DNA from: Pacificibacter maritimus
GTDB taxonomy: Bacteria > Pseudomonadota > Alphaproteobacteria > Rhodobacterales > Rhodobacteraceae
Assembly (NCBI RefSeq): GCF_003814915.1
Contig: NZ_RKQK01000002.1
Location: 435,184 to 499,183 of the forward strand
DNA length: 64,000 nucleotides
Direction: 5' to 3'
Shown: positions 34,212-51,424 of the stretch, piece after piece
How positions within the stretch are numbered: the first letter of the stretch is position 1
How the letters are laid out: every line of letters starts with the position of its first letter
The notes under the pieces: generated by a model
The model's database searches: none
Told to the model about the DNA's origin: nothing
The model's input: the letters and a program-made list of their open reading frames with translations, nothing else
Position numbers and translations under genes: made by a program

Positions 34212-34216
34212 CGACG
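34212..34216. repeat. Target-site duplication CGACG, left copy
   Basis: CGACG directly precedes the transposon's left end TGTAAATC. The identical CGACG directly follows the right end at 51419-51423. Confidence 0.9.
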
Positions 34217-34247
34217 TGTAAATCCGGCCAAAGTTGTCTCGAAGCCG
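34217..34247 (+). repeat. Left terminal inverted repeat of the Tn7-like element
   Basis: Starts TGTAAATC and contains AAAGTTGTCTCG at positions 14-25. Inverted partner at 51388-51418. Confidence 0.9.
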
Positions 34248-34262
34248 CAAGATTTAACGTGC

Positions 34263-34298
34263 AATTACAATGGCTTATTTTGAGTGAAATTACAATGG
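34263..34298 (+). repeat. Direct repeat AATTACAATGG (two copies) inside the left end
   Basis: AATTACAATGG occurs at 34263-34273 and 34288-34298, with starts 25 bp apart, inside the non-coding left end. Spaced short repeats of this kind are often TnsB binding sites in Tn7-like ends, though the motif differs from the terminal repeat and I do not see it at the right end. Confidence 0.5.
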
Positions 34299-34403
34299 GG
34301 CCAAGGATCCCACGATAATCGGGGCAAGATCACGCGAAACCCTCTAAAAGACGCAAAAAAAGCCCGCCGAAGCGGGCTGTCGATTTGGCGATTTATGATG
34401 GTT

Positions 34404-35876
34404 TTAAGCTGACTTCTTGAGCTTCGAAAGCGAACTGACGTCTACGTAAGCAGCACCAATGCCGACCTTGTCAGGATGACGGTATCCAGGGATCCTGCCA
34501 GCCTGGATATCGACGAAGACATCTTCGAACAGCCCGGCACCACGCTGACAAGCATAGGTGACAGGGTGGAAATCGCCTTCAATGTCATCCGTAAGAAGCG
34601 GCAATTCCTGCAAACCCTGCAAAAAATCATCAAGATTCCGCCGCGAAAAGACGACGTTTCGAACTGAACCACGGCCCGTCCGCGGAACCAGCGGCTTCAC
34701 AATTTCCATCCGATACAGCGCCTCGAATTGACCTTTGGTTGCACCGAGATAATCAGGAACGTCCTGCAACCGAACTGCAGACTTGAATGCCTCGATCATT
34801 GGCACGGTTTTCTTTGCCTCAAAGACCGCGTTGCCGCAGTCAACTTCCGTCGCATCCTCCGGCACTTGACCAAGTTTTTTCAAAACCCGTGATAACCGCA
34901 CCCGCGGTATATCGACCTCAGCGGATAAGCTTTGCAGGGTATGATATTTTCGCTCTGTGATCTCAACACCAAGAACCTTAGTGCCTGGCTCGACAGCAGA
35001 ATTCTTAACAATGTGGTCCCGCAAAAGGTCGCGGATCGGCCCAGGGTCAATCGTGTTGCTGCGGCGATGCAGCCAATCATAGAGCTTGCCATAATGGGCC
35101 AGTGGCCCAGCTTGCACGGCTAGGGCTGGCGATGTCGTCCGGATCGTATCCAGTGCCTCAATGACCGCCTCTTGCCCCTCTCTGTATATGGAGAAACCGA
35201 TATCGGTGGCCTCTTCAGTCTGCTCCGGGGATAGCTTCATGACAGCAACACGGTGGCCATGCTCCAATATTGCGCCCAGCATTTCAGATGCAGCAAGAAC
35301 CTGTTCTAGGGTCTGGTCATCAAGCCAGGGATTACCGGTGGGAGATTGACCATGGAGGCGTGTCCTTAGCCACGACAGATAGTCTGGCGTCTCTCTGGAA
35401 GTAGTCTGAGTTTCTTCGAGAATTTTAGTGCCGATGGCCAGACGTAAGTTAGTCTCGTTCTTGCAAGGGGTATCAATGAGCCACGACGAATGATGATCAC
35501 ATCGGACCACATGACGGAAACCCCAAATGAGACGGAACCTACGATGGTTCATGTGACCGTCTTCAGCGAGACAAGACGGACAATAGCGAGCAGCACGCGG
35601 GCTCAAGAAGGTTTTGGAGATGTCTTCGCCGCGAAACGACGCTGCTCGCTGAGATACGCGGATGGCCCCTTTCTCAGCATCTTCCGACGGCAATCCGACC
35701 GCTGCTGCGAAAGCCGAGACTGCCTCTTTGCGGCCAGATGTAAAATGCTCGACGTTTATACCGATGTCCCTGATGAGCCGCTCCATCCCGCGACCGGTAT
35801 GCAACATAGACAGCCGGTCCGCATGTCCGAGCAAAGTTTCTTCTGGGTCATAGGTAAGGCTTGGCCACAAGGTCAT
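34404..35876 (-). CDS. tniQ: TniQ/TnsD-family target-selection protein
   Basis: The 490-residue protein is close to TnsD in length. The N-terminal TniQ domain starts TLWPSLTYDPEETLLGHADR and holds a zinc site: Cys99, Cys102, Cys126 and His129 (YCPSC, RCDHH). The C-terminal half has helix-rich regions (VDIPRVRLSRVLKKLG, LQDVPDYLGATKGQFEALY) that look like DNA-binding helices. In Tn7, TnsD binds a fixed chromosomal site and recruits TnsC. Its ATG overlaps the tniB stop (ATGA). It is the last gene, nearest the left end. Confidence 0.9.
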   Translation of the reverse strand: MTLWPSLTYDPEETLLGHADRLSMLHTGRGMERLIRDIGINVEHFTSGRKEAVSAFAAAVGLPSEDAEKGAIRVSQRAASFRGEDISKTFLSPRAARYCPSCLAEDGHMNHRRFRLIWGFRHVVRCDHHSSWLIDTPCKNETNLRLAIGTKILEETQTTSRETPDYLSWLRTRLHGQSPTGNPWLDDQTLEQVLAASEMLGAILEHGHRVAVMKLSPEQTEEATDIGFSIYREGQEAVIEALDTIRTTSPALAVQAGPLAHYGKLYDWLHRRSNTIDPGPIRDLLRDHIVKNSAVEPGTKVLGVEITERKYHTLQSLSAEVDIPRVRLSRVLKKLGQVPEDATEVDCGNAVFEAKKTVPMIEAFKSAVRLQDVPDYLGATKGQFEALYRMEIVKPLVPRTGRGSVRNVVFSRRNLDDFLQGLQELPLLTDDIEGDFHPVTYACQRGAGLFEDVFVDIQAGRIPGYRHPDKVGIGAAYVDVSSLSKLKKSA

Positions 35877-36850
35877 GACTGCCCCCAGCCAATTGCAACC
35901 AATTCAGCCTTCACAACACTCCAATCCGCCCTGTTGAAAGGTGTCATGTCCAAGCCTGAGTTCGATTTACGGTAGACCCGCTCGGCAGCTTCGAGGGTGA
36001 CCGTTTCTTGCTTCCTCACAATTACAGAGCGCAAGATGTCCTTGCCCAAAGCTACACTTTTGCCGATCTGCCCATGTTCTGCGAAAAGAATACGATGAGG
36101 CAACGCATCCCCTTCGGCGATATTAATCCCCAAAATCTGGGCGCACTTCATGAAGTTTTTGTCAAAGGTATTTGCGCCACGGGAACCTGGACGGATCCTG
36201 CCTAAAGAAAACTCGTTAAAGCGGCGCATCGTCTCACCAGTGACCTCGCTTTGGATCGCTGACTTCAAGTTCGGAACGCCAGCAATGATTAGGGCGACGC
36301 GATCCTGAGACTGCATGATGTGTTTCAAGGCCTGAATGGCAGCAGGGATGTCCCGTCCGGCACCAGGACGAAAAATGTGATGGCACTCGTCGATGATCAA
36401 GGTTTTGATCCCAACGAGGCCAAAACGATGCCTCGCTATTTCCCAGGCGTCTGCGGCCCGCAATTTTTTATCGACCTTTTCATAGCCCGTTGCTGCCAGA
36501 ATGATCTCCGCAAGCTTCTTGATCGTCGCCTCTGGAGGGACCGTGATGAAAAGAGTGTTGCCGCCCTGATTAATCTTGAATTGCGTCAGAACAGGATCGA
36601 CGCGGAGAGCCCTTTTCAACAATGCCGTCTTTCCGTTTCCAGATTGGCCAAGGACCATCAAGCCTTTGGTTTCACCAGTCAGCGGATCAAAGCGCGGCTC
36701 AGTTGTCCTCTGACCATCGTCATCCATTTGAAAGATGTCGATCAGATGGTCTTCAAGATCGCGTTCCGTTCCGAATTTCCAATACCTTTCGTCGAGCCAA
36801 GTAAGCTTTTCGGTTAGAGAGCCGGGGGTAGTATTAGTCATCTCGTTCAT
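35873..36850 (-). CDS. tniB: TnsC/TniB-type AAA+ ATPase of the transposon
   Basis: This is a 325-residue ATPase. Walker A is GQSGNGKT (residues 68-75) and Walker B is LIIDE (151-155) followed by CHH. It should form filaments on target DNA and link TniQ to the transposase. ATG 36850 lies two bases after the tnsB stop, and its own stop overlaps the tniQ start. Confidence 0.93.
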   Translation of the reverse strand: MNEMTNTTPGSLTEKLTWLDERYWKFGTERDLEDHLIDIFQMDDDGQRTTEPRFDPLTGETKGLMVLGQSGNGKTALLKRALRVDPVLTQFKINQGGNTLFITVPPEATIKKLAEIILAATGYEKVDKKLRAADAWEIARHRFGLVGIKTLIIDECHHIFRPGAGRDIPAAIQALKHIMQSQDRVALIIAGVPNLKSAIQSEVTGETMRRFNEFSLGRIRPGSRGANTFDKNFMKCAQILGINIAEGDALPHRILFAEHGQIGKSVALGKDILRSVIVRKQETVTLEAAERVYRKSNSGLDMTPFNRADWSVVKAELVAIGWGQS

Positions 36851-36852
36851 TC

Positions 36853-39048
36853 TTACTCCATTGAATCGTCGTCAAAATCTGTTCCGCCATCGCACACCGG
36901 CTCATGTGCGGCCTCGGCCACGTAATTAAGGTTTTCAGGATGATTGCGCGTGCCGTCATCAGCGTCGTCAAGCAGCCCACGATAAGGCCCTGCTTTGTGA
37001 CGGCGCTCTGCCGTGTCCGCATGACGTACGAAGCGTTCGACGTCTTTGCGAAGTTCTGCGGGTGTTTTCGGAAGAGAAATTAGCCCCTTCAACTGCTTCA
37101 GTCGAAATGACTCCCGGTTGGCATTATTGATAAGATCACGGCGCGCGCGGAATTCGTCGGGGTCTTCATCTTGCTGTTGCTGAAGCCATTCGCGCAGATC
37201 GATATCGTTCTTGCCGATCCACCGCTCGTCTTTTGCAGGCACCGTGTACCACGGCCCGTCATCGCAACGAGCGCTGATTGTGCCGATATCCCCATCCCAC
37301 CTTAGAAATTCAAAATACTCCGCATTTGAATCGACGAACTGCTGCATGAGGGAATCTGATTGATAGTCGATTTGACACACGCGAAGTCCCATCTGACTTA
37401 GCTTGCGCCGCCCCGGCACACCGAAGACTTCACGCATTTCGTCACTGCTGAGTGAGCGCGGCGTGCATTCCTTGATCGCCTCTTCCCATGCCTGATTTGG
37501 CGACATGCCAAGAGCGGTATGCTTTTTTGTGTGATAGGCATCGACGGTCCAACGCACCAACCACACCAGAAACGCCTCCAAAGTAAGGGTCGCTCGGCCT
37601 GCAGCGTCATTTTCTTCGCGCTCGAGGACATTGCTAAACGCACGCCCTGAAAAACGCTGCAAAAGATCGCTGTGGATCGTCCGGAATACGCGTTCGATAA
37701 ATGGTTTCAGCCAAGGCTTGCCAGCCGGCGCACCAAGGTTGGTAATGCCGAGGCTTGCGAGAACGTCGTAAGCATCATCCGTGACGTACCCTGCCCCACG
37801 ATCAAGCACGATGGTTTCAGGCGCCCCCGCCATCGGCCAGCCGAACTTTGCACCTGCTGCGTCTGCGATGGAATTTTTATCGGTATAGATCATTTCCACA
37901 GTTTGTTTCAGGGGGCTTTCGATGCCCTCGGGCACAATCTGAAGCGCTAGGAAGCAGCGCGTGTGGACGTCGATCGCTGCAGACAACGTGACACGCCGCG
38001 CGAAACCATCCAGCCCCAAAATGTCTTTGATAGATTGCGGCATGTGATCAAACAAACCTGTGCTTTGCATGAGCACGAACAGATCAACCGTGTATTCATC
38101 AATCTCGACACGCTGCAAAGCACGGGAGGTTTCAATCCCCATCCCAAGGGTGTGGAGATCCTTATAGGCCTTGTCCCAACCGTGTTTTCGAATTTTGTGA
38201 TCAAGCGGGGCATTCTCTTTGATCAGGCGTAGGATGTAATCATAGCCAGCCTTCTTCAGCTTGGCTGCGGGAACCGGAAGACGTTCCCGCCGTTCATTTT
38301 CGGCATCAAGAGCCATTTGAACGCTTTCAACCAGTGACTTAATCGTTACACGTTCTTGGTCCCATAGGGTGCCAAGAATACCCTCAATGAAATTGTCGGT
38401 CGCGTCATCGTACCGTTGGTATTTCCCACAGTTCCGATACTTGTCGAAGAGACCGTCATCGCCATCAGTGCGCCACTGCCAGTACCACTTCCACATAGTC
38501 TGACCGCATTTGAACCCTTGATGAAATTCAACAGACTTCTTGATTTCCTTCTTTGATTTTGTGGTTCGCGCACCCCCCCGCTTGTTCTCCCGAATTGCAA
38601 GTGCTGCCAAATATTCATCGTACCGGTTTTTGCCCCTAGCGACGATTCTGACGATATTGTCACAGAAATCATCACGGATCGGTTGAAGCTCGCCAGCATC
38701 AAGCATGTCTTGGATCGCCAGCACATATTGCTTTTTGAAACGCTGTCGTGCCACCTCAGTTGGCAAACGCTCAATTCGACGGATTGCTTCTCGATCAAAG
38801 TGTTTTGCCAGGGGGCGCCGAAGAACCTTTAGGTTGCCGTAATTGTTCTCAGTGACGATGGCGCCATAGGACATGACACCAGCCGTGCTCTCATGGCACT
38901 CGCCGGTTTCAGGGTTAGTCCATTCTTCCCAAAAAATCAGGTAACCTTCGGGTCGCAACTCAAGGACGCGTCCATTGCGAGTGCCGATTGCAAACTCGCA
39001 ATCCTTCTCAAGGAGAACCCTGGTCTTTTTCTTGAACGGAGCGGCCAT
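36853..39048 (-). CDS. tnsB: TnsB/TniA-type DDE transposase
   Basis: The 731-residue protein has N-terminal DNA-binding helices, an rve-type catalytic core and a Mu-type C-terminal domain. The probable catalytic triad is Asp317 (RVEIDEYTVD), Asp416 (IVLDRGAGY) and Glu452 (LKPFIERVFRTIH), with the D-35-E spacing of this family. It cuts the 3' ends and joins them to the target with a 5-bp stagger. The start ATG overlaps the tnsA stop as TAATG. Confidence 0.95.
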   Translation of the reverse strand: MAAPFKKKTRVLLEKDCEFAIGTRNGRVLELRPEGYLIFWEEWTNPETGECHESTAGVMSYGAIVTENNYGNLKVLRRPLAKHFDREAIRRIERLPTEVARQRFKKQYVLAIQDMLDAGELQPIRDDFCDNIVRIVARGKNRYDEYLAALAIRENKRGGARTTKSKKEIKKSVEFHQGFKCGQTMWKWYWQWRTDGDDGLFDKYRNCGKYQRYDDATDNFIEGILGTLWDQERVTIKSLVESVQMALDAENERRERLPVPAAKLKKAGYDYILRLIKENAPLDHKIRKHGWDKAYKDLHTLGMGIETSRALQRVEIDEYTVDLFVLMQSTGLFDHMPQSIKDILGLDGFARRVTLSAAIDVHTRCFLALQIVPEGIESPLKQTVEMIYTDKNSIADAAGAKFGWPMAGAPETIVLDRGAGYVTDDAYDVLASLGITNLGAPAGKPWLKPFIERVFRTIHSDLLQRFSGRAFSNVLEREENDAAGRATLTLEAFLVWLVRWTVDAYHTKKHTALGMSPNQAWEEAIKECTPRSLSSDEMREVFGVPGRRKLSQMGLRVCQIDYQSDSLMQQFVDSNAEYFEFLRWDGDIGTISARCDDGPWYTVPAKDERWIGKNDIDLREWLQQQQDEDPDEFRARRDLINNANRESFRLKQLKGLISLPKTPAELRKDVERFVRHADTAERRHKAGPYRGLLDDADDGTRNHPENLNYVAEAAHEPVCDGGTDFDDDSME

Positions 39049-39731
39049 TATTCAGCCACTCCGCGTTCAATTAAGGTCTTTCCCCGGATTTTTTCAGGTG
39101 TGAAAAGGCGCGCATGCCCTGAACGAATGGCGCGCGCGACACTGAAGAACCCTCGCCCTGAAAGGCCGATGCTCTCAAGAAATTCATTGACTGAAACCGT
39201 AGTTTCAAGCTGAGCCAGTCCGTCAACAACAATGGCATCGATCTCAGGCTCCGGCTTTCTCGCCGCGTGATAAAGTTCAGCGTTATGCAGTTCAATCGGG
39301 CTGATATTACGCTCAGTCACCGTTGCAACAGCATCGCAAATATTGCCAATCGCAGCATTCTTCACAGCGCCGATCATTGCCTGATAGGCATAAGTCGTGG
39401 CAATCCGTTCCGGCTTAACGGAGATGCAGATCCTTTGCCCACCCTTCGTCGTGAACCTAAAATCGAAGAAATGTTGGCTTGTTGCGCCCTTTGGGTGATT
39501 GAAGGGCAGCGATGCCAACTGCTCTTCGATATCAGCAAAATCTTCACGATAGATCAGGCAAATTGCCGCCTTGAATTCCGTATAACTGGCAAACCCGAGG
39601 CGCTGTGGCTTCCCCTTGATATTGTCATAGACAAACTCACCGACAAAATGGCCCTTTGAAGATTTTGGGATCGGACGGACAGCGCGGCTCTTCGCTGGCG
39701 GCGGCATCAGGTGTTTTCTTGCAGTGCTCAT
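39048..39731 (-). CDS. tnsA: TnsA-like 5'-end endonuclease
   Basis: This is a 227-residue protein with a restriction-endonuclease-type fold. Likely catalytic residues are Glu52 (SYTEFKAA), Asp90 (QHFFDFRF) and Lys106 (ISVKPE), spaced as in Tn7 TnsA. A C-terminal helical part (SVNEFLESIGLSGRGFFSVA) would contact TnsB or TnsC. TnsA cuts the 5' strands so that the element leaves the donor cleanly. It heads the four-gene coupled set and may itself be coupled to a small upstream frame. Confidence 0.88.
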   Translation of the reverse strand: MSTARKHLMPPPAKSRAVRPIPKSSKGHFVGEFVYDNIKGKPQRLGFASYTEFKAAICLIYREDFADIEEQLASLPFNHPKGATSQHFFDFRFTTKGGQRICISVKPERIATTYAYQAMIGAVKNAAIGNICDAVATVTERNISPIELHNAELYHAARKPEPEIDAIVVDGLAQLETTVSVNEFLESIGLSGRGFFSVARAIRSGHARLFTPEKIRGKTLIERGVAE

Positions 39732-40036
39732 CGGCCCTTACCTTCAGCTTCGTGGAAGCCGTCGATCGAAACTCCATCGCAGCGTTTTGACATGGCCGCG
39801 AAGCGCTGGCAGCCAAAACGACAAACAGCACACTTGGCTTCTGAGCCAGGCACGCCGGTTGCACCCCGGTTCCCAACTGCGGACAACAGGATCGCCGCTT
39901 GATATTTTGTCTCGCCTCCCATCGGGCACGTCTCCACTGGTCCGCGCCAGCTAGATTCTGGGCGGTGAAAAATATCTATGAAGTGATCAAAAGCGCCTGG
40001 TTGCTGAGGCCTTCGCGGACCTCTGTCGTTTAGCAA
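39728..40036 (-). CDS. Possible small cysteine-rich protein coupled to tnsA
   Basis: This 102-residue frame ends in a TGA that overlaps the tnsA ATG (ATGA), as in coupled genes. It has a C-terminal cysteine cluster (KCAVCRFGCQRFAAMSKRC) and a start TTG 40036 without a clear ribosome site. No family was recognised. Coupling argues that it is real; the weak start argues against. Confidence 0.4.
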   Translation of the reverse strand: MLNDRGPRRPQQPGAFDHFIDIFHRPESSWRGPVETCPMGGETKYQAAILLSAVGNRGATGVPGSEAKCAVCRFGCQRFAAMSKRCDGVSIDGFHEAEGKGR

Positions 40037-40408
40037 TCAACTTCTGGGCACGGGGGCCCTCACTCCGGCACGCCGCATAGACGGTGCGCTATTATTTACG
40101 CCTCCTTTTATCGGAGATCTGGTCTTGGGCCTGTACCGGCCATTCATTTCAAGACAGAGCCAAAGTGCATTTTCACAGCACTGAGTCGAGTCATTTTTCA
40201 TATTTAATTCATGAGCTTAGCGAAAATTCCAACTACCATTAAAATCTCAGACACATTGGTGCTCTCGGCTTTCAAAGCTTGGTTTGTTTTCGCATTCGCA
40301 TCGGACATGAACATCACTTGACCGATACTTAAGCTGACATTTCAAATCTGGGAATAGAAAGACAGAAATTAGATGTGGATAGACTGTCTACTTTGTTCAA
40401 ATGCCTGA
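40037..40408. other. Non-coding gap inside the transposon
   Basis: About 370 bases between the small tnsA-coupled frame and the zinc-ribbon gene. No gene or clear repeat was found. The promoter of the tns operon probably lies here. Confidence 0.4.
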
Positions 40409-40969
40409 CTATCGGATGCCCCTTGCCTGCAGTGCTTCAAACAGCCAGTGGAAATGATCATGTCCGCCCAACTCAATATCTGGTGGTACGTTGATTTCCT
40501 TTGCGCAGATGCAGCGGCCAATGAGACCACCATCTTCAAGCAGAAGTTCTTCCGTCAACAATTTGAGAAGACGCCGCGCGGTCATATACGCCAGTCCATG
40601 TTGATCTTTGAACTCGTGTCCAGTGATGCTTTCGAAGCTACTCATCCTTGCTTTTTGCTTGATGATGTCCTCGGCAGCCAAGAAATATGTGAGCAAATTT
40701 CTATTGGCGCCATGCGCAAAAGTTCCTGCCGTTGCGGAAAAATGGTAGGCACATTTTCGGCAGCGGTAGGTTTTTCGCGAACTTTTCGGTGCGATGTCCC
40801 TCGCTTTGCACCGGGGACAGTATAGCCCAAACTGCCACCGCACAGTTTCAAAATGACCGACACAAGAATCACTATCTTGAAACTTAGCCATCACCCCACC
40901 TTCGGGAAGGCGAAGAGCCAGCGTCATCCAATGGATGCGTTCAATATCATGTGCGGACAAACCAGATTG
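40409..40969 (-). CDS. IS1595-like zinc-ribbon protein lacking a DDE catalytic domain
   Basis: The core has HFETVRWQFGLYCPRCKARD, then YRCRKCAYHFSATAGTF and LLTYFLAAEDI, which matches the zinc ribbon and following helices of IS1595/ISXO2 transposases. The downstream DDE domain is absent: the protein ends within about 110 residues of the ribbon. ATG 40969 (MQSGLSAHD, 186 residues) is a reasonable start; the frame runs up to ATG 41095, and ATG 40888 (MAKFQDSD) is also possible. It may be a transposase remnant or a co-opted DNA-binding protein. Confidence 0.65.
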   Translation of the reverse strand, partial: QSGLSAHDIERIHWMTLALRLPEGGVMAKFQDSDSCVGHFETVRWQFGLYCPRCKARDIAPKSSRKTYRCRKCAYHFSATAGTFAHGANRNLLTYFLAAEDIIKQKARMSSFESITGHEFKDQHGLAYMTARRLLKLLTEELLLEDGGLIGRCICAKEINVPPDIELGGHDHFHWLFEALQARGIR

Positions 40970-41237
40970 CATGATCACTCCAATACGAGAGTTTTTCACT
41001 CTCCAAAAGAGTAGCAACGCCATGCCGTAAAGCAGCCTTTCATGCAACTTGCGGCGAAAGTCCGCTTCGAGCCCATTTTGGACGATGCTGCGCATTCGAT
41101 GAACGGCAGCAATGGAAACAGAACGCCCGCTAAACCTACTAGGCGCATATAGACGCCAGAGTAGCCTTGGCGCGAAACTCGGTATTGTCTAACATTTTGA
41201 AAAGTCGGTACGGTACAAAAATAAAGGTCGCTTCTCA

Positions 41238-42524
41238 GTGAGAAAAGGTTCAACTACTCCCCCTTGGAAACTAGATCCTAATATATTCATGCCAACAAAG
41301 ATTCCACATTGCCTGAGCGTTGTGAGAAAGCACGGACCACTACTCTCGGATCAGGTTGTCTTTCCGCTTGCGCACATTTGGGATGAAGTTGTTCACAGGA
41401 TAACTCTGGAACTGATGGGGTTAGCGACCTCTGCTGAATTCGAGCCCCACATCAATATGCGCGGTGAAATGACGTTGGAACTTGCACGCCTCCAAATTTG
41501 GCTAGGAGAAGGCGTTGTGGAACGGCGCATTAACAACAGGCCTCTAAACACCATTAATCCTGATGTAGAGCGAGAAGCCTGTCTCGGTCCGAACGGAGTT
41601 GAAATCATTTCAGGGACAGCTCGCATGGCCTATGATCATATATGGAAAAAGATCACGGACGAACGCTGGAAACCGAAGTCGGCAAAAGCTCTTGAACGAG
41701 AAAAGACCCCTAGAAAAACAAAGCTTGCCGTTAAACCAGTCGGGAAAAATCATTTTATCCCCAAATCGTTTTTGAAAACGAACTGGGCTACCAACGACAA
41801 AATTCTGCGATGGAGGCCCACAGACAAGGGTTGGACATCGTTCTCACGCAACTTTGGACAATGGGGATATCGCAAAGGCCTCTATAGCGATGAACTTGAG
41901 GCATACTTCAGCTTGCTAGAAGGGGATGCCACGCAGCCAATCCAAATGCTTCTTGATATGCGTCCTCTAAACGATCCGCAAAGAAGCTCATTCGTTGGCT
42001 TTCTGATTATCCAGATGCTGCGAAACCCGGACTTCATTGAAGGAAGCCAAAAAGCCCTCGCTCCCGTAATCGCTGAAAGCGGTCACGGAGACGATCCGAC
42101 AATGGCACGCCGCGCATACGAAACGCTGTTTCAAAACAATGAGCTTTACGACCGATTTGCTCGGCCAATCATGTGGAGTCGCTGGGCAATCGTGAAGTCG
42201 GAGAAGCCCGTCTTCGTTCTACCGGACCGATTCAGTGTTAACAGGGATCTTGGAGATGGTTTGCGGGTGATCGTTCCGCTTACGCCTAGGGCTTGCTTTG
42301 TAACACTGTTAGATCGGGAGGAAGAAAAGGATATCATTCCGCACCATCTTCCCGCTGATCAGTCGCTGGCCAGACGCATTTCCGCAACCTTAATCGAGGG
42401 GGCTGGCTCAGAGTTCGTGTCGCATCTTGATTTTGTACCGGATCAAACGAAAGCGGTTGAACTTGAAGATCTGTTGAATGACATCGCTGACGCGATCACG
42501 GTTAGAGTGCGCGAGCGCGGCTAG
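41238..42524 (+). CDS. DUF4238-like cargo protein
   Basis: This is a 428-residue protein. From about residue 165, NHFIPKSFLKTNW is followed by ILRWRPTDKGW and FVGFLIIQMLRNPDF, a pattern like the DUF4238 family (typically H-[YF]-[VI]-P near the start). The first 160 residues are a separate region of unknown type. DUF4238 proteins are often in mobile or defence contexts and their function is unknown. The start is GTG 41238 with AAGG ten bases upstream; ATG 41289 is an alternative. Confidence 0.7.
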   Translation: MRKGSTTPPWKLDPNIFMPTKIPHCLSVVRKHGPLLSDQVVFPLAHIWDEVVHRITLELMGLATSAEFEPHINMRGEMTLELARLQIWLGEGVVERRINNRPLNTINPDVEREACLGPNGVEIISGTARMAYDHIWKKITDERWKPKSAKALEREKTPRKTKLAVKPVGKNHFIPKSFLKTNWATNDKILRWRPTDKGWTSFSRNFGQWGYRKGLYSDELEAYFSLLEGDATQPIQMLLDMRPLNDPQRSSFVGFLIIQMLRNPDFIEGSQKALAPVIAESGHGDDPTMARRAYETLFQNNELYDRFARPIMWSRWAIVKSEKPVFVLPDRFSVNRDLGDGLRVIVPLTPRACFVTLLDREEEKDIIPHHLPADQSLARRISATLIEGAGSEFVSHLDFVPDQTKAVELEDLLNDIADAITVRVRERG

Positions 42525-42693
42525 GCTTGGTGAGCGCGTATCCATCCGGTAGCGCAATATGGCGGCGCTGGTTTTGACTGTGCATCTCGAGCCAGAAGCG
42601 ATTATTGCCTTGGTCTATTTGAATGACGGCAAAGTCCGCGTTACAGTCATCAATGTACTGCGCAGCGAATGTCCTGTTCGTGAGTGCGCACAA
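42502..42693 (-). CDS. Possible small protein, weak support
   Basis: This 63-residue frame reads plausibly as protein (TFAAQYIDDCNADFAVIQID, then RHIALPDGYAL) and ends 23 bases inside the convergent DUF4238-like gene. It has no known family and no strong start signal. Confidence 0.25.
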   Translation of the reverse strand: MCALTNRTFAAQYIDDCNADFAVIQIDQGNNRFWLEMHSQNQRRHIALPDGYALTKPSRARAL

Positions 42694-43230
42694 TCTCTAT
42701 AAGTCTGTGCGCACAACCAAATGAGACTGGGGGGCTCAATCCTATGGAAGAATATAAATGGCAATCTACAGCTGTGGTTCCTCAGAGAAAGTACGAACGG
42801 GGTAGCCTTCGGGATGTCGTATAGGCCGCCTCGGACGCCGCTTTTCCCAGACCGACCGATGAGTATTTTGAGGGTAATTTTCGCAGTTGGCGGGTGCCGG
42901 CCGTATTCCACTATTTGTGACGGCCATTTCTGCAAAATTTCTGTCAAATACTTCCGGGCATTCTTTTAGGTTTTCCCCAACGCGAGTTCGCGATGCAACA
43001 CGAATGGGAGGCGCGGCCCATGCGAAAAAACCATTTTTGAAAGGGCTCGACTTCCATTTCGACCAATGTAGAAGTGCGCCCCCACAGGAACTGGCATTTT
43101 CGAAAAATTCCGCAGTTTTACTTTTCGCAAATCAATCGTTCAGAGCTGCGCGTTTTTTGCTGGAGATGGCGCCGTTTCGACCGTTACCCCTAAAGGCACC
43201 TGTCTGGAAAATCACCAGACAAACACCGCC
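42694..43230. other. Non-coding cargo spacer
   Basis: More than 500 bases with only overlapping short frames on both strands and no credible start. It ends just before the metallophosphoesterase gene and should contain its promoter. Confidence 0.4.
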
Positions 43231-44103
43231 ATGAAGGAGCTTAATGCCGTGCCCGATCAAACCATCCCATTCAACTCTGGCCGGATCGCGGTGTTGGGCG
43301 ATCTACATCTCGACCACTGGCAACGGATTGGTCGAAACCCGTTGAAGGACTTCCAACTTGAGGCGCTCTTGCGTACCGATTTTGATGCGCTGATCGTCGC
43401 TGGCGATTTAATCAACGGACCTTGGTCGAACTGGCCCCAGGCTATCGAATTCCTTGCCCAATACATCCCGCCTGAGCGGATTTACGCGCTCCCCGGCAAC
43501 CATGATTATTATCGCGGCAGCTTGATGGACGACCCTGATCTCGCCAAAGTAACGCAAAGCTGCAGTGCCAATTTTGTGCAAGAGACTGTGCTCTACCACG
43601 GTAAAACTCGCATCCTGTGCTGCACCCTTTGGACTGATTTTGCCCTGCTCGGCACCCCGAAGGACTCCATGCGGTTTGCCGCAAAGGCAATGAATGATTA
43701 TCGCTGGATAGCCCTGAACAACAATGGTCATGAAGCGATTGTACCGAAAGACGTACTCGATATGCATATCAAACAACGCGCTTGGCTGGAAAGGCACCTC
43801 GCATCGCCACACCCCGCTGGACCAGATGGCAAAACCATCGTGGTCACCCACCACGGGCCCCATCCGATGACGGCAGGCAACATCGACAAGCTGACGCCCG
43901 CGTTTCATTCTGATCTTTCCGACATCCTCACCAAACACCCTATTGACGCCTGGTTCTTCGGCCACAGCCATCGTCATTTCAGAGAGACCGTTGCGGGCTG
44001 CGATATTCGCAATGTCTCGATTGGCTATCCCGAAGATCGCCAAAACCAGCTTGGCCATTTGGAAACCGCAAGCATCTGGGAGAGCAACCATGGACCCCAA
44101 TGA
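43231..44103 (+). CDS. Calcineurin-like metallophosphoesterase
   Basis: The 290-residue protein has every metal motif: GDLHLDH, VAGDLING, LPGNHDYY, VTHHGPHP and FGHSHRHF. It should hydrolyse a phosphoester (nucleotide, RNA or DNA); the substrate is unknown. ATG 43231 (MKELNAV) may be replaced by a later start near the first beta strand. The following gene overlaps it by 14 bases, so the two proteins are made together and may form a functional pair. Confidence 0.9.
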   Translation: MKELNAVPDQTIPFNSGRIAVLGDLHLDHWQRIGRNPLKDFQLEALLRTDFDALIVAGDLINGPWSNWPQAIEFLAQYIPPERIYALPGNHDYYRGSLMDDPDLAKVTQSCSANFVQETVLYHGKTRILCCTLWTDFALLGTPKDSMRFAAKAMNDYRWIALNNNGHEAIVPKDVLDMHIKQRAWLERHLASPHPAGPDGKTIVVTHHGPHPMTAGNIDKLTPAFHSDLSDILTKHPIDAWFFGHSHRHFRETVAGCDIRNVSIGYPEDRQNQLGHLETASIWESNHGPQ

Positions 44104-44707
44104 TGACGACATCGCGTTGCTGCAACGCCTCGCCGAAGTCGCCGACACCGACAGTCATTCATGGCGTAACTTCGGCGAAGTGGCGAAGGATGATATCAGC
44201 GAAGCGCTGATGGCAGAGCTTGTTGGGTTGGCGCCCTTCATGAAGCTTCAACCGGACAGTGATGGCCGTTTCTGCATGTCTGCGGCGGAATGGATGAAGG
44301 TCTATCATGCAGCGAAGACCGCAATTTTTGAACGCATGCGGCATCGATCCTTCGAGCTCGCGCTGTCCGGACCTGGCGATTTATCAAACGCGCCGACCCT
44401 AAAATTGTGGCTCCCGGTTCGCAGCTCGGTGGGACACGGCGTTGCTCTAGTAGGGCTGGTAAGTGGGCATCCCTTTGTCGGCGATGGCTGGATCCGTACA
44501 TCGCCATTATGTGGGCTGGATGGAAACGGAGATTGGGCCCGCAGTACATCGCGCTGGTATGGGCTGATGGAACCATCAACCCCTGAGGTATTACGCAAGG
44601 CGACAGGTCTCAAACCAGACGCCATTGCTCGCGCCGCCTTGTCCCTACCAGAAGCGCTCGCAAGGCTGGCTGAAGCACAGAACGAAGAGGGTTTTTTGGC
44701 AACCTAA
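44090..44707 (+). CDS. DUF6634-like partner of the metallophosphoesterase
   Basis: This is a 205-residue protein starting at ATG 44090 with GGGAG seven bases upstream, inside the metallophosphoesterase gene. The middle (VALVGLVSGHPFVGDGWIRT, then WARSTSRWYGLMEP) resembles what I recall as DUF6634, in which a G-H-P and an R-W-Y element are conserved. The function is unknown. The tight overlap with an intact phosphoesterase suggests a two-gene unit carried as cargo. Confidence 0.72.
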   Translation: MDPNDDDIALLQRLAEVADTDSHSWRNFGEVAKDDISEALMAELVGLAPFMKLQPDSDGRFCMSAAEWMKVYHAAKTAIFERMRHRSFELALSGPGDLSNAPTLKLWLPVRSSVGHGVALVGLVSGHPFVGDGWIRTSPLCGLDGNGDWARSTSRWYGLMEPSTPEVLRKATGLKPDAIARAALSLPEALARLAEAQNEEGFLAT

Positions 44708-45059
44708 CTCGAAGCTTTTCTTCACCACGCCTTGCGACTTAATTTTTAAGCAGGGGACATATGGCTCAACCTGGAGAAACCAAGTTTGGCCGAGCGGCCA
44801 AAACTATCGGACAGCTCACGGCCCTAAGCTGCCATTGGCCAACCGGTCAAGATGCTGCAGTCGCAGCCCGCAAAGTGGGCCTTGGTCGAGATCGCAGCAT
44901 TCGGGAATGCTCTAATGACTGCATCGCGGGACCTTTCTGCCGTTCGCAGCATCAGCGACGCATAGGGCGCAGAGCGGACGCCGCCCGAAGCCTGTTTACT
45001 TGATCTGCAGCCATGATTGATCAATGCTGTATCTGACCCTCTAAAGAAAGGATTATCGC
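44708..45059. other. Non-coding cargo spacer
   Basis: About 350 bases without a credible gene. It includes GC-rich words such as CCCGCAAAGTGGGC and a GCAGC-rich stretch that recur in looser form in other spacers of this element. The end contains AAAGGA, the ribosome site of the next gene. Confidence 0.4.
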
Positions 45060-45851
45060 GTGCCATTCAACGCCATGGTGTCCGCAAAGCTTGCAGCTTA
45101 CGTCTATGCCCTCGCCGACCCTCGCGAAAAAGGAGCGCTCAAGGACCGGATCTTCTACATCGGGAAAGGGAACGGGAATCGCTGTTTTAGCCACGCCCAG
45201 ATTGAGACGGATGGCGCGCCCCTCAATGAAGGCGAGCATAAACTCGCTAAGATTCGGGAAATTCGTAGCGCGGGAAATGACGTCGAAGTCCTCATCGTCA
45301 GCCATGGGTTGACGGACACGCAAGCTTTCTCCCTCGAAACAGCATTGATCCCACTGTTAGGCGACACCAACAAGGTCGCCGGCCACGGTGACCGAGAGTT
45401 CTGGTTGATTGAAAATCATGTCAAGGAACTCTACGACAGGCCTATCGAACGGGGCGATATAGACCTGCTCCGGGGAAATGTGCTTTTTGTGAGCTTGAAC
45501 AAGCAGGACGCCACTAAGCTCTTAAAAGGCGTTGACGACGAGGTCGCCCATGCCACGCTGGGAAACTGGAACCTCAACGTTCGGGACTCCCGTCGTGTGG
45601 ATTGCGTTATTGGCGTTAAGAACAGCCTGATCCTATCGATCTTTGAGACCGAGAAGACCTCGGACAACATCACGCGGTTCGATCGGCTTTCGGCCCCGAT
45701 AAAAGGAGCGCATGGTCGTTCTCGGTTTTTCGGGACAAGACGTGGTGACCTCGAGGAACGGCTGAGGGGCCGGACAGTTCGCCAAGACGGGCAAGTGCTC
45801 TCGAAGATTAGACCTGGCGCAGGCTGCCAGTTTTTTCCCGCGATGGCTTAA
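45060..45851 (+). CDS. GIY-YIG nuclease-domain protein (LEM-3-like type)
   Basis: The 263-residue protein starts at GTG 45060 with AAAGGA seven bases upstream. The N-terminus is AAYVYALADP...RIFYIGKGNGNRCFSHA, which is the GIY-YIG core in its VYAL...FYIGKG form; the following Glu in SLETALIPLLG fits the catalytic glutamate. The C-terminal half (about 140-263) has no recognised family. It probably nicks or cuts DNA. Such proteins occur on many mobile elements, some as defence nucleases. Confidence 0.82.
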   Translation: MPFNAMVSAKLAAYVYALADPREKGALKDRIFYIGKGNGNRCFSHAQIETDGAPLNEGEHKLAKIREIRSAGNDVEVLIVSHGLTDTQAFSLETALIPLLGDTNKVAGHGDREFWLIENHVKELYDRPIERGDIDLLRGNVLFVSLNKQDATKLLKGVDDEVAHATLGNWNLNVRDSRRVDCVIGVKNSLILSIFETEKTSDNITRFDRLSAPIKGAHGRSRFFGTRRGDLEERLRGRTVRQDGQVLSKIRPGAGCQFFPAMA

Positions 45852-46202
45852 CCACGCGCGCTGGCTCCGATGGCCGAGAAGGCCTTCCATGCTGCAGCAT
45901 GCCTGAATGTCACTTTGGGCTCTCAACTGCCGTCGGGTGCGCTTGCACGCGAATTCAACATCAAACCGTAGGGCGAGTGGCCGCCATGCGGGACGAATTG
46001 TAGAATTACATTGACTATTTAGTACAACAAAGAAAAATGGCACCGGCATGAAGCGGATTCACGAACACGAGATTGACTAGCTTTTCATTGATACACTTCG
46101 CGGCAATCCTGCGGTAGGATCTATTCTTCTAACAATCCTAGGTCTTCCCCCAACGATGGCAAAGCAGAATCGGGTTATATGAGCTTATATTTGGGGGGGG
46201 AA
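45852..46202. other. Non-coding cargo spacer
   Basis: About 350 bases with no credible gene. The last 60 bases are AT-rich, followed by a run of G before ATG 46203 that serves as ribosome site. Confidence 0.4.
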
Positions 46203-46898
46203 ATGAATAGCTTTAAAAAAGTGGCTTTATGCTTGGTTTTGACACCACTCCCGGCATTTGCTGATGAATTCATGCAATGCGAGTTTGAGGTTTTACCCGT
46301 TAGTCCTCAACCTGCATGGGTCGAAAACTTCGACCTGTGTAACGATGATATCCGCAGGTTTGTCGAAGCGCGTGCCTTGGGGTTTGAGTTTTATGCGCCA
46401 GCGCTCGAACAGTTTTCAAACTTGACCGCTTCTGACCAGCTATTGGTTATGGAAGTGACCCAAGCAGTCGTACCAACGGATAACGGGCTAGAGCAGGACT
46501 TGCGTATCCCGATGCCGCTCATAGATGCTATACTTGAAGAAGCATTGGAAAATGGAGCAGATGACTTTTTTGAAATCCCGGGCTTCGAGGAAACCCTCAT
46601 GGAGTTGCGAGAAAGCGGTGATATTGGGGCCAGAAGCTTAGGCTTTGTTGCGGCCAAAGCACCGCTTGGCATTGCAAAAATATACTTTTTGTCAGAGAGC
46701 TCGGAAATAAGACGTTCGGTAAGGGCTTTGAATGCCGCGCAGAGTGACCTTGAGACTTCCGAACAACGGCTTGAGACTTCCAGACAACGGCTTGAGGACG
46801 TAGAAGAGCAAGCGCGACTGGCTAGAGAGCTTGAGGATGGGGCTGCAAGAGTAGGCGAAACCGCACAAGGTTTACGCGGCATTCTTGAAGGCAACTAG
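46203..46898 (+). CDS. Secreted protein with C-terminal coiled coil
   Basis: The 231-residue protein starts at ATG 46203 after GGGGGG. The signal peptide MNSFKKVALCLVLTPLPAFA is cut before DE. The middle is mostly helical and acidic. The end (about residues 180-225) is a coiled coil with the repeat LETSEQRLETSRQRLED, encoded by a 21-bp tandem repeat near 46751-46792. No family was recognised. A periplasmic or surface role is inferred from the signal peptide only. Confidence 0.65.
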   Translation: MNSFKKVALCLVLTPLPAFADEFMQCEFEVLPVSPQPAWVENFDLCNDDIRRFVEARALGFEFYAPALEQFSNLTASDQLLVMEVTQAVVPTDNGLEQDLRIPMPLIDAILEEALENGADDFFEIPGFEETLMELRESGDIGARSLGFVAAKAPLGIAKIYFLSESSEIRRSVRALNAAQSDLETSEQRLETSRQRLEDVEEQARLARELEDGAARVGETAQGLRGILEGN

Positions 46899-47306
46899 GC
46901 GCTTTCCCAAGAACTGACATTAGCTGCATTGCAGAATTTTGGTAAGTAGGGCTCGTTGCCGCCATTCGCTGCGCTTGAAAGTGCAACGCACTGTCGAACG
47001 TCTGCTTTCTCAAATCATCGGCCTATCCTTCGTAACTGCAGCGAAAGTCTGCAATCCGCCCTTGATGTTGATGGTCACGAACGGCCCAAAGCCGACCTCC
47101 GCGACTGTGCTGGACGTTGCAGTGCAGCTTCCTGAAAGCGGACGTTGATCTTTTGCGCAGCATTTTGATTGATCGGACGGCCGGATTGCGGGACTGAGCG
47201 GTCCATCGTCCTGATGAGACGAAAGTCTGCTTTGACCTATAGCGACACCGTCCGTCACCTAGCTGGACTGGACCCGAAACTGTTCCGTGTACAGCCCCTC
47301 AGCTTC
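46899..47306. other. Non-coding cargo spacer
   Basis: About 400 bases with no credible gene. It contains GCAGCGAAAGTCTGC and AAAGCCGACCTC, words echoed at 41,055-41,070 and 48,780. Confidence 0.35.
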
Positions 47307-48599
47307 CTATTGTACGAGCAAAAGATCGCGCTCCAATATGCCAATTCTCTTATCGGTGTTACGCGTTTTTTCCTTCGAATACTCGGCGAGAAGGCGGCGG
47401 ACACCGCCGACCCTGAGACACGGGCGAGCGGGTGGCCCGTTCAAGGCTGCTTTGCATCGCGAGCCAGCCCCGAAGACTTTGATCAGATCAATGCGCTCAG
47501 CGTCTGTCATGTTCTTGACAACCATTGGACCCACGAGAAGCGTCTCCGTCAAGCAGGCGTTGGCGGAGACAACCTCGTGTCGCTCACAGGCGAAGTGGAT
47601 CCACGTGATGGATTTCTTGCCCTGCATCTGGCGAATGCCGGGCAGAGATACCAGTGATTTTGCAGGGGCCAGGCTTTCCGTCTTGAATTGAGCCTCCAAC
47701 TGTCCGCCGCCGCCGACCAATACCCGGTGCTGCGGCGACACGATCAAATCAGTAGTCGGCTTGCCCGCGCCCAAGGCCCCTGCTTTGATTATGACCGGCA
47801 TGTCATTCACCCGTGTCGCTTCCAGCGGATGATCGCTACTGCGTACCCAACAGATGGGCTGCGGGCCGTGATCCAGAGTGTGCACCAGGTCACCAGGTAG
47901 CAGCGTTTGCACGGCACGCGGACCTGTCGGGGTATCTATCAAGGTGTCAGGAGCGTAACACGCCACCGTGACGGCTGTATATTCGTAGCTGCCGGTTGTG
48001 GAATTGTACTGGTACGACGCCCCAGCATTCTGGTCTTCCACTCCACTGTCCAATGCGGCGTTGGCCTCTCCCATCAACAAGGTTCCTGGAAAGCCGGAAA
48101 GGCTCGGAACACTGCTCGCTTCAGTGGCAGAAAAATTTAGGACTATGTATTCGCCCGTTAACGGGTTGACCAAAGCCACGCTCTCAGGCTGGGAACTGCT
48201 GTCGGCGCCTTCCGACAGAAAGTTTGTGTTGGCTCCACCTGCGCCGGATTCGACCCCACCTTCGCTGGCTTCCTGCATGTTGTAAGCCGGAGTGCCAGTG
48301 ATCTCATTTACAACATAGACCGTCTGGCCCGGGTTGAGCACGGTCCCAGGTGGGAATGTATGATAGAGGCCATCTTGCGGCCCATCCGGTGCTCCGGCGC
48401 CCGTCATATCCGACCAGATTTGCCAGCCAGATAAATCGACGGGGGCGCCCGACGTGTTCGTGAAAGAAACGAACTCATCCTCTTGCGTGGCGATGCCGTC
48501 ACCATCCGTGTCGAATTCCGCACCGCCGGAATTGTCTCCGTAGAATTGATCAAAGATGATGCCGTCCAGACTTGCAGTCATGAAGCAGATCCCGTTCAT
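47307..48599 (-). CDS. Lamin-tail plus Hint-domain protein
   Basis: This is a 430-residue protein. Residues about 8-130 resemble a lamin-tail domain (EDEFVSFTNTSGAPVDLSGW, ending in YVVNEITG). From about 215 a Hint domain follows: ACYAPDTLIDTPTGPRAVQT, GDLVHTLDHGPQPICWV and VSPQHRVLV, with Cys at the splice-junction position. Such Hint proteins are numerous in Rhodobacteraceae and are thought to be secreted or self-cleaving; the role is unclear. The start is ATG 48599 or 48581 (MTASLDG). The gene is intact. Confidence 0.82.
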   Translation of the reverse strand: MNGICFMTASLDGIIFDQFYGDNSGGAEFDTDGDGIATQEDEFVSFTNTSGAPVDLSGWQIWSDMTGAGAPDGPQDGLYHTFPPGTVLNPGQTVYVVNEITGTPAYNMQEASEGGVESGAGGANTNFLSEGADSSSQPESVALVNPLTGEYIVLNFSATEASSVPSLSGFPGTLLMGEANAALDSGVEDQNAGASYQYNSTTGSYEYTAVTVACYAPDTLIDTPTGPRAVQTLLPGDLVHTLDHGPQPICWVRSSDHPLEATRVNDMPVIIKAGALGAGKPTTDLIVSPQHRVLVGGGGQLEAQFKTESLAPAKSLVSLPGIRQMQGKKSITWIHFACERHEVVSANACLTETLLVGPMVVKNMTDAERIDLIKVFGAGSRCKAALNGPPARPCLRVGGVRRLLAEYSKEKTRNTDKRIGILERDLLLVQ

Positions 48600-48877
48600 T
48601 GCTTCCGAAACCCTTAAAATCGTTCGTAAGGATTAAAATTGGCTAAAGATTTAGACTCTTTACGCCGCCAAAATCTGGACAATTTGACCAGATGGATGGG
48701 CATTTCAGTATTGCTTCCTAGCTTTCCAAGCGACAAAGCAGCCATTGGCTGTACCGCGAAATCTTGGCAAGTTGGGCTCAAAGCCGACCTCGGATGCGGC
48801 GCGGCATTTTGTGATATGGTACGGCGTCAACGTGGGGTTGTCGATGTGGGAGGGCGTGGCGGACAGGAGAAACTGTC

Positions 48878-49510
48878 ATGCAAACACCAAACTTACCGGC
48901 CATTCGCGCGCTTCGCCCTGCTTGGAATAAGGGGCGCATCGTGGGGCAAAAGCGGCCACTGAAGCCCAAACATGTCTGGGCGATCCGTGTCAGGCTGGAA
49001 CTTGCCGAGAACCTTCGCGACTTAGCTTTGTTTAATATGGCGATCGATAGCAAGCTACGCGGATGTGATCTTGTGCGAATGAAAGTCGTCGATGTTATGG
49101 CGTCTGGACAGATTAAAGAACGTGCATCGGTGTTGCAAAGCAAAACCCAAAAACCTGTGCGGTTCGAGATTTCCGAAGGCACCCGCGCCTCGGTGGCAAA
49201 GTGGCTGGAAGATCCGTTGATGGTCGGATCCGAATATCTCTGGCCGGGTCGTTTCCACGAGCGGCTCCACATCTCAACACGCCAGTATGCCCGTATTGTG
49301 CGGGATTGGGTTTCGTCCATCGGGTTGGAAGTGACCGCATATGGCACCCATTCGATGCGACGCACGAAGGTCACCCAGATTTACAAAAAGACGGGCAACC
49401 TGCGTGCGGTTCAGCTGCTATTGGGACATACCAAGATGGACAGTACAGTTCGCTATCTGGGCGTTGAACTCGAAGATGCGTTGGCAATAGCAGAGGCTAT
49501 TGAAATCTAA
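48878..49510 (+). CDS. Tyrosine recombinase/integrase, catalytic domain only
   Basis: At 210 residues it carries the catalytic residues Arg (SKLRGCDL), His-x2-Arg (THSMRRTK), His (LLGHTKMD) and Tyr (TVRYLG). The usual N-terminal arm- and core-binding domains are nearly absent, as in a small, frequent proteobacterial group. ATG 48878 has GGAG seven bases upstream. It may move a smaller unit within the transposon or act as a resolvase; no att-like repeats were found beside it. Confidence 0.88.
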   Translation: MQTPNLPAIRALRPAWNKGRIVGQKRPLKPKHVWAIRVRLELAENLRDLALFNMAIDSKLRGCDLVRMKVVDVMASGQIKERASVLQSKTQKPVRFEISEGTRASVAKWLEDPLMVGSEYLWPGRFHERLHISTRQYARIVRDWVSSIGLEVTAYGTHSMRRTKVTQIYKKTGNLRAVQLLLGHTKMDSTVRYLGVELEDALAIAEAIEI

Positions 49511-49654
49511 GCGTTTGGGCCGTTCGACATGGACGGCCCATTCCTGCCTCCAATCTGTCACGTCGATGTCGCAGCGCAGCTTCACCAGACCGGCCATTCG
49601 CGCATTGTGCAGCATTTTAGGAGGGTGAAGGGCAGGCAAACCCCTATGCCAAGA

Positions 49655-50764
49655 TCACGGCTGGAATGATCTCGATGCGATCGGTAGCTGAAAATCGATT
49701 TCCAGGCGGACAGGCAAGGATGGAGCGCTACCCATGATATCCAGGCCGTCGGTCACCAAGCGGCTCAAGTGCTCTTTCTGCTTGTCGCCTAAGCCTTGGT
49801 ACCAACTCGGATTGAAGAAGATGTTTTCTACGTGCTTCGTCACAATTTGAAATAAAGCGGAGGCTTGTTGATCAGCGGGAAGCGCCTTGATCTGTTCTGC
49901 GATGACTTTCCCGGGCGCACCGTCAATATCCCGCCAAGAAATACAAACCAGCGCACGATTATCTCCTGCAAATGAAGAGACAAATATCTGCTGAAGAAGC
50001 TCGTCCGAATACCCGTTCTGGAGTTTTTTGCCGTAGAAGTCAGTATAGGGCGACCAAGCACCAGCAAACATGAACGGCAAGGGCGCATCAAATTCAAAGA
50101 CATATGAACCAATGGTGTCTGGCTGATTGTCGACCAATGCGGAGGTCAGCACGTCATGTGTAACCTTCGCCTCACGCCGAGCAGCCTCATTTCCTGTGTT
50201 TATGTTGTCCAGCGTCTTCTGGACGATAAACTGTTCAAAAGGTAGCATTCCTTTGTCGGCTCCGCGCAACGTCTCGCGAAGATGGGCTAACGCGTCCTTC
50301 CCATAGAGTTCCCTGCTCATCGTGCGGTAGGCCACTGCAAGGCATTGGTCTGGGCGGCCTGTAAACGGCTCATTTTCGATGCAAGAGAAGAGCTCGCGAT
50401 CATGCTTGCCGCAAAAACCATAGAAGACCGACGCGTCTTTGATACCGACCTTTTTGACTGATAGTTTGCCGCCAATCTTGTTCAATTTCTGAACGTCCGC
50501 AGCATACTTAAGCACGTGACCATTCTCGGCGATCTTAGACAAATTGGGTCCGCGTGAAACTGTGTGGGCTTTGATCACACCACCTTCGCAAGGGCCCAAA
50601 CCTACGTCGTTCGCGCAGCACTTCTTCTTGCCAAACGACTTCCGATTAGCGTCCACGGCGGACCAGGGATTATCCTTCGGCTGATCCGCTCGGTTCAGGT
50701 GGCATTTCTTGTATTTCTTGCCTGAGCCACACCAGCAGGGAGCATTTCGATCTCTTCCCTTCAT
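49655..50764 (-). CDS. SEC-C zinc-motif protein of unknown function
   Basis: ATG 50764 puts the SEC-C motif RNAPCWCGSGKKYKKCH at the very start; the frame opens at GTG 50821. A second cysteine/histidine region (KKCCANDVGLGPCEGGVIKA, then HTVSRG) could be another zinc or HNH-like site. The remaining 270 residues are unrecognised, with conserved-looking FNPSWYQGLGDKQKEHLSRL. SEC-C proteins of this build are often found on mobile elements and some are suspected in phage defence. It is the last gene before the right end. Confidence 0.72.
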   Translation of the reverse strand: MKGRDRNAPCWCGSGKKYKKCHLNRADQPKDNPWSAVDANRKSFGKKKCCANDVGLGPCEGGVIKAHTVSRGPNLSKIAENGHVLKYAADVQKLNKIGGKLSVKKVGIKDASVFYGFCGKHDRELFSCIENEPFTGRPDQCLAVAYRTMSRELYGKDALAHLRETLRGADKGMLPFEQFIVQKTLDNINTGNEAARREAKVTHDVLTSALVDNQPDTIGSYVFEFDAPLPFMFAGAWSPYTDFYGKKLQNGYSDELLQQIFVSSFAGDNRALVCISWRDIDGAPGKVIAEQIKALPADQQASALFQIVTKHVENIFFNPSWYQGLGDKQKEHLSRLVTDGLDIMGSAPSLPVRLEIDFQLPIASRSFQP

Positions 50765-51387
50765 CGTTCGAAATTCATCAGATTTTCCTGCCCAATTTCT
50801 CAATGATTGTCTTTGCCCCACATCGTGACTGGAGATTGTCGGTCAAAGGCGGCCTTCCGCTTGGGAAAGGACGATTATTGGTTTCGCAACCAGTGACTTC
50901 GCCGCTCGAAATATCATTATGAACTACATTGTTTCCTGTAACGACTGATCTGTACTGAGAGCGACCGTAAATGCAAGGCGCAGCATCCGTCAAATTGGGC
51001 ACTTAGCCTGAAATCGACGCGTTCAGAACGAATGGCCGCTTTCATGTGTTTGACAGTGTGTCGTCGCGGGTGCAGCGAAATCACACTTTCCGCCCCGACT
51101 GACGATTGCCACAAGCCGCCGTAGTTAACTACCTCATCAACCTGGCCCGCGCGCCAATTTTAATGCCGCATCACCTGAGAGAAGGTCATAGATGAAATCC
51201 GATCTTCTGAATGGTCAGGTCTTTAGGAGAGCGTCAAAAGAACGCTCCAATATGCCCAACATTGTTAGCAAGCTCTCTTATGGTGCCCTGAGGAATGAGA
51301 GCGTCCCGCGCTGGTTCAGTATGTAGAGGCGTTCGAAACTTCCGCACAACATATAGCAAAACCGTCCGCGTCGCGGGATCTTTAACC
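50765..51387. other. Non-coding right-end region of the transposon
   Basis: About 620 bases between the SEC-C gene and the right inverted repeat. No credible gene. GTTGTGCGG near 51342-51350 (minus strand) loosely resembles GTTGTCTCGG of the terminal repeat and could be an internal TnsB site. Confidence 0.4.
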
Positions 51388-51418
51388 CGATTCCGAGACA
51401 ACTTTACCCCGATTTACA
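51388..51418 (-). repeat. Right terminal inverted repeat of the Tn7-like element
   Basis: Read on the minus strand from 51418, it starts TGTAAATC and contains AAAGTTGTCTCG. It matches the left end at 25 of 31 positions. Confidence 0.9.
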
Positions 51419-51423
51419 CGACG
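51419..51423. repeat. Target-site duplication CGACG, right copy
   Basis: CGACG directly follows the right end and is identical to 34212-34216. One base separates it from the stop codon of the NDUFS4-like gene. Confidence 0.9.
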
Positions 51424-51424
51424 C

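Follow-up and report, generated by a model that had tools for sequence, protein, structure and literature searches.

Why does a 17-kb transposon in Pacificibacter maritimus end directly behind a gene for a subunit of respiratory complex I, and is this position chosen by the element or accidental? The stretch analysed here, called the window below, comprises 64,000 nucleotides of contig NZ_RKQK01000002.1 and contains an element of 17,202 bp with ends at 34217 and 51418. Its right end lies 6 bp beyond the stop codon of an intact NDUS4 gene (51425-51736, minus strand; PF04800, E 2e-37), which annotated records name 'ETC complex I subunit'. The original prediction made from this DNA had not identified that gene as the target. 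We consider it very likely that the element represents a complete Tn7-like transposon that uses the 3' end of NDUS4, read by its own TniQ protein, as attachment site.

Ends and transposition genes

The ends are read directly from the window sequence, which confirms the predicted breakpoints, length, end similarity and flanking duplication. The left end TGTAAATCCGGCCAAAGTTGTCTCG begins at 34217 and the right end TGTAAATCGGGGTAAAGTTGTCTCG, in minus-strand reading, at 51418; the two agree at 8/8, 22/25 and 25/31 positions over increasing lengths. The pentamer CGACG occupies both 34212-34216 and 51419-51423, giving an exact 5-bp target duplication. With the duplication included, the inverted pair 34211-34241/51394-51424 matches at 87% over 31 nt and tops the listing of 83 inverted pairs in 34100-51500, where one 33-nt pair is longer, yet matches at 73%. 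A perfect AAAGTTGTCTCG occurs twice in the window, at the two element ends, while nine occurrences are found with up to two mismatches (4.86 expected). The left end (34217-34340, plus strand) consists of the terminal TGT, a repeat at 34221-34241 and, about 50 bp beyond it, an inner repeat at 34294-34314, followed by a third repeat at approximately 34317-34336 that was spotted by eye and is unscored. The right end (51372-51418, minus strand) carries the terminal TGT and two contiguous repeats with a spacing of 22 bp (51394-51414 and 51372-51392). The TGT...ACA termini, the several TnsB-type repeats distributed unequally between the ends and the exact duplication are all traits of Tn7-like elements. 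By the convention given in excerpts of PMC11406308, the right end is the one located upstream of the tns genes; here, this end adjoins the target gene, and the cargo lies between it and tnsA.

The transposition genes form a compact operon on the minus strand, in which each gene is a single open frame and neighbours overlap by 1-4 bases or are spaced by two, as the predicted intact and coupled tnsA-tnsB-tniB-tniQ set required. TniQ (34404-35876, 490 aa), a TnsD-type target selector, was aligned with six relatives and matches PF06527 above the cut-off (E 1.5e-14); its structure model gives a hint of winged-helix-like domains at the C-terminus. TniB (35873-36850, 325 aa) is a TnsC-like AAA+ ATPase with matches to PF05621 (E 2.5e-17) and, at profile level, to VchTnsC (E 1.8e-5). 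The DDE transposase TnsB (36853-39048, 731 aa) has no significant match in Pfam; a profile built from six relatives and searched against solved chains, including TnsB proteins of Tn7-like elements and CRISPR-associated transposons (CASTs), matched PseTnsAB (E 7.8e-28) and Tn6677 TnsB (E 1.3e-24). Residues D317, D416 and E452 are invariant in six aligned rows and in our reading represent the DDE triad. The TnsA-like endonuclease (39048-39731, 227 aa) is assigned by its position and by a fitting E/D/K pattern (E52, D90 and K106, invariant in eight rows). The set thus contains the TnsB-type transposase, the TnsC/TniB regulator and the TniQ/TnsD selector of a Tn7-like element, and no TnsE or Cas family was found among the element and flank proteins scanned. 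Together with the recurrence of the same genes and ends at the same site in relatives, the Pfam and profile matches uphold the prediction of a complete Tn7-like transposon. Its further suggestion of a recent, possibly still active element is compatible with the intact genes and the exact duplication. A search of the own genome with 17.7 kb matched only the element itself and one 55-bp stretch, which leaves no second copy, and this genome encodes a single TniQ.

NDUS4 as the insertion site

A TnsB scan of genome contigs returned seven close loci with 67-89% identity. All seven contain tnsA-tnsB-tniB-tniQ in that order with an element end about 200 bp beyond tniQ, and each of these genomes has an element end within a few bases of the NDUS4 stop codon. 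Other copies of the ends around the same four genes, which the original prediction had proposed to look for, are thus present in relatives. In four cases NDUS4 and the operon share a contig, on which right end, cargo, operon and left end follow one another; in the other three the ends are on separate contigs and are assumed to belong together. One of the seven loci (L068) has a TniQ with an internal stop. A sample of 41 genomes of relatives contained NDUS4 in 36, and six of the 30 NDUS4 loci read there, the window counted, have an end after the stop codon, one of them shortened and one of another end type.

The survey was extended to 394 genomes of the family with an end pattern allowing up to three mismatches, which matched 23 times, in 19 genomes; the reversed control had no match. 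Seventeen of these matches are right ends directly after NDUS4, three are left ends lying towards tniQ (window, G006 and G320) and two form a tandem junction in G215, where they face one another. Since NDUS4 was detected in 375 of the 394 genomes, detectable occupation with this end pattern amounts to a few percent. A search for close TnsB relatives at E<=1e-80 in 337 genomes of the class, a few of them from the same family, found none in the other 336.

The insertion geometry is narrow. At 28 distinct occupied sites the distance from the NDUS4 stop codon to the end is 2-7 bp, always in one orientation. Exact 5-bp duplications flank nine of the 12 elements for which both ends could be set (three of these nine rest on ends from different contigs), and all nine differ in sequence. 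The different duplications in combination with the fixed gap indicate that it is the gene end that stays constant and not the duplicated bases, an arrangement that, by analogy, fits TnsD-type recognition. The 3' end of NDUS4 therefore looks like a programmed insertion site, with the constant position and orientation next to a conserved gene that characterize Tn7-like elements. Most likely, we infer, TniQ would bind the conserved last codons of NDUS4, after which TniB would be recruited as the TnsC component. TnsA and TnsB would then excise the element at its TGT...ACA ends in a cut-and-paste reaction, and it would enter the target 2-7 bp beyond the stop codon, its right end facing the gene, with a 5-bp duplication and without damage to NDUS4.

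Thioclava genomes provide natural tests. In strains GXIMD4215 and GXIMD4216, NDUS4 resides on a megaplasmid, where a sigma-54 regulator is its neighbour and uvrB is absent from the stretch. A window-type right end trails the gene there as well; the operons look broken. In Thioclava 'Guangxiensis', a 61,131-bp insert of a distant relative (TnsB 45%, TniQ 43%) follows NDUS4 and has GAGGG on both sides, while in GXIMD2076, which lacks the insert, the sequence beyond it directly follows NDUS4. The two forms are 98.0% identical over 2,957 bp and 99.1% over 12,002 bp, with an older right end of the same type already present in the shorter one. This pair is more simply read as gain of the insert. As a separate observation, the GXIMD4215 plasmid carries a type I-E CRISPR-Cas system (cas3, casA-E, cas1 and cas2; L132, 23968-32362) past a broken tniQ near NDUS4.

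Several observations weigh against programmed insertion by a TniQ-read system. At protein level, TnsA scores 17.5 bits against PF08722 (E 0.0064), below the cut-off of 26.5, and has no relevant match among solved structures; the structure model of TniQ is poor (mean predicted local distance difference test score 64.3), and its fold matches are weak, none reaching E<=0.001. The duplication is not exact in three of the 12 elements (G397 with 1/5, G320 with 4/5 and G013 with 0/5 matching bases). One survey match lies away from NDUS4: the well-kept right end in G358 (L095/L114, G358:C8:38061) has no match to window proteins within 39.4 kb, and the NDUS4 gene of that genome carries a different end type. 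Among the 17 genomes in which an end adjoins NDUS4, a TnsB of at least 38% identity was detected in just three (G000, G006 and, as a fragment, G076), so that many occupied sites are probably remnants; the 20 fetched regions, each of at most 20 kb and some ending at contig boundaries, held a full operon in one case (L118) and tniQ pieces in three (L102, L112 and L116). A TnsB from G211 (36-38% identity, long branch) groups with those of NDUS4-associated elements, but the NDUS4 site of this genome is empty. For the Thioclava pair, the shorter form could also stem from later loss by recombination, since the sequence past the insert is similar to its first 1.5 kb.

Finally, the proposed search for an uninserted copy of the window junction was unsuccessful, the left flank being absent beside NDUS4 in the relatives examined. 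This flank (32300-34216) matched one of six congeners, on a contig other than that of its NDUS4, and none of 37 NDUS4 loci with 1.5-kb flanks. When window open reading frames of at least 100 aa were compared with five empty-site regions, the sole matching block (12.8-21.1 kb) was found in G408 alone, inverted and 12-19 kb away. In G408 a tRNA-Arg(TCT) gene directly follows NDUS4; that of the window lies at 21219-21295 on the opposite strand. Given the missing flank, the inverted block and the displaced tRNA gene, the region to the left of the element (21219-34216) seems to have been rearranged in this genome.

What reads the target

The alternative that survives best, which we regard as improbable, leaves the site specific and changes the reader: another DNA-binding protein, either the zinc-ribbon protein encoded at 40409-41095 or an unseen TnsF-like partner, would read the NDUS4 end, with TniQ acting as an adaptor only. 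Such a division of labour is described for Tn6022 in the available part of PMC10293859. The zinc-ribbon protein (minus strand; PF12760, E 2.9e-6) is of IS1595 type without a DDE domain, and its gene is found upstream of tnsA, on the same strand and in the same place, in five of 13 elements. It is not found in the other eight, several of which sit at NDUS4, and this distribution rules it out as a fixed component. The proteins are sometimes only about 30% identical despite TnsB identities above 80%. We consider it a variable accessory, possibly a dead transposase that has been co-opted for a regulatory or targeting role. The length of the window TniQ falls within the range (>400 aa) that PMC10293859, in the same part, ties to direct target binding.

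Far less probable is the view that NDUS4 is not recognized at all, and that untargeted insertions survived in a safe spot or one old insertion passed on its position. Some sites may indeed be inherited remnants, and the displaced end in G358 would agree with such a view. Against it stand the gaps of 2-7 bp at 28 sites, the single orientation, the nine different duplications and the four end sequences (described below) at one gene, which together require insertions that were repeated and aimed; the end also occurs where NDUS4 is on a plasmid. The idea that a guide RNA of the element matches the NDUS4 end deserves the least credence: some Tn7-like elements do reach a chromosomal site by guides (PMC11406308, in part), but no Cas family turned up when 16 proteins of the element and its flanks were scanned with Pfam and ten of them also with PADLOC, and the best ungapped match of the element to the last 140 nt of NDUS4 stays at shuffle level (a match of 11 in the window, reached by 31 of 40 shuffles; for three other elements the best match was reached by 15, 9 and 15 of 40).

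The proposed recognition of the NDUS4 end by TniQ also has to be placed among known systems. With Tn7 the element shares TnsB/TnsC/TniQ-type genes accompanied by a putative tnsA, TGT...ACA ends, an insertion just past a conserved gene and a 5-bp target duplication. Tn7 targets glmS instead of NDUS4, and it inserts further downstream of its gene than 2-7 bp past the stop codon. Other differences from Tn7 are the cargo between the right end and tnsA, the operon running out to the left end, a single TniQ, no TnsE seen and the stacking beside older ends. A right end facing the target gene and 22-bp TnsB-type repeats spaced differently at each end are further Tn7-like traits, as given in the accessible text of PMC11406308. 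Tn6022 is likewise Tn7-like and uses a conserved chromosomal gene (PMC10293859, in part), but it sits within comM and needs TnsF, whereas the window element leaves its gene intact and no TnsF-like gene was recognized in the operon. CASTs have related TnsB, TnsC and TniQ proteins, and several of them also home to conserved genes according to portions of PMC11406308; their Cas effectors and guide have no counterpart among the scanned proteins or in the guide scan. TniB and TniQ family proteins also occur in Tn5053/Tn402 (TniABQ), from which the window element differs by a tnsA-like gene before tnsB, by the NDUS4 target and by different ends. Tn5053/Tn402 elements are not known to encode TnsA, are organized as TniA-TniB-TniQ-TniR and target res sites.

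The kind of element, Tn7-like, is known. No paper linking Tn7-like elements to NDUS4 was found in the literature searched, where supplementary tables may list the site, and 'NADH' does not occur in the main texts of PMC10293859, PMC11406308 and PMC8649781 as far as these were available.

Stacking, transfer and cargo

Four end types occur at NDUS4: that of the window, that of G135/G205, that of G321/G215/G002 and that of Thioclava/G358. In five of 12 cases (G431, G432, G433, G434 and Thioclava), as well as at the G215 junction, a left end abuts an older right end 4-7 bp away. The older end is identical to the new one over 25 bp in Maritalea (G432) and degraded in G433. Such stacking argues against strong target immunity. 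A sequence GAAATTGTCTCG at 34200-34211, immediately outside the left duplication, resembles the end core at 10 of 12 positions and may be fortuitous or left over from an earlier event; it is oriented like the left end and does not represent the older right end that stacking would predict.

A TnsB tree was built from 28 rows, with 14 of the 23 more remote loci (L010-L032) included and the others, like the G076 fragment, omitted. All 13 rows whose genomes have an end at NDUS4 fall into one branch (100/100), joined only by G211; for five of the 13 (G205, G321, G430, G431 and G434) TnsB and NDUS4 are on different contigs. The NDUS4-site label changes twice on this tree, and none of 500 shuffles was as low. 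We tentatively suggest, with somewhat more doubt than confidence, that a whole Tn7-like clade in Rhodobacteraceae-type bacteria shares NDUS4 as its general landing pad, 'attNDUS4', used by elements with at least four end sequences, and that stacking at 4-7 bp even by an identical older end (Maritalea) reflects weak or absent target immunity and builds large islands stepwise. If so, it would be the counterpart of attTn7 for these bacteria, a predictable and apparently harmless site behind a respiratory gene, and a candidate tool for inserting DNA at a single site in Rhodobacteraceae. The NDUS4 end would also indicate where to seek defence and other cargo islands in these bacteria, and host variation together with the four end types would make target recognition by TniQ and target immunity directly testable.

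The element fits a transfer between hosts. The Aliiroseovarius element shares 91, 89, 86 and 81% identity with the window in TnsA, TnsB, TniB and TniQ, compared to 66% for NDUS4 and 81% for UvrB of the hosts, and congener G402, with an NDUS4 of 89% identity, has no end after this gene.

The cargo (41238-50821) encodes a DUF4238 protein, a metallophosphoesterase, a DUF6634 protein, a GIY-YIG protein, a Hint/LTD protein, an integrase-domain open reading frame and a SEC-C protein. The GIY-YIG protein (45060-45851) matches the anti-phage model PD-T4-3 in PADLOC (E 5e-25). At 43231-44707 the metallophosphoesterase gene adjoins the DUF6634 gene, and the same pair is found side by side in the elements of G428 and G135; the metallophosphoesterase also recurs without its partner in further elements. 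The pair is a candidate for an unrecognized defence module.

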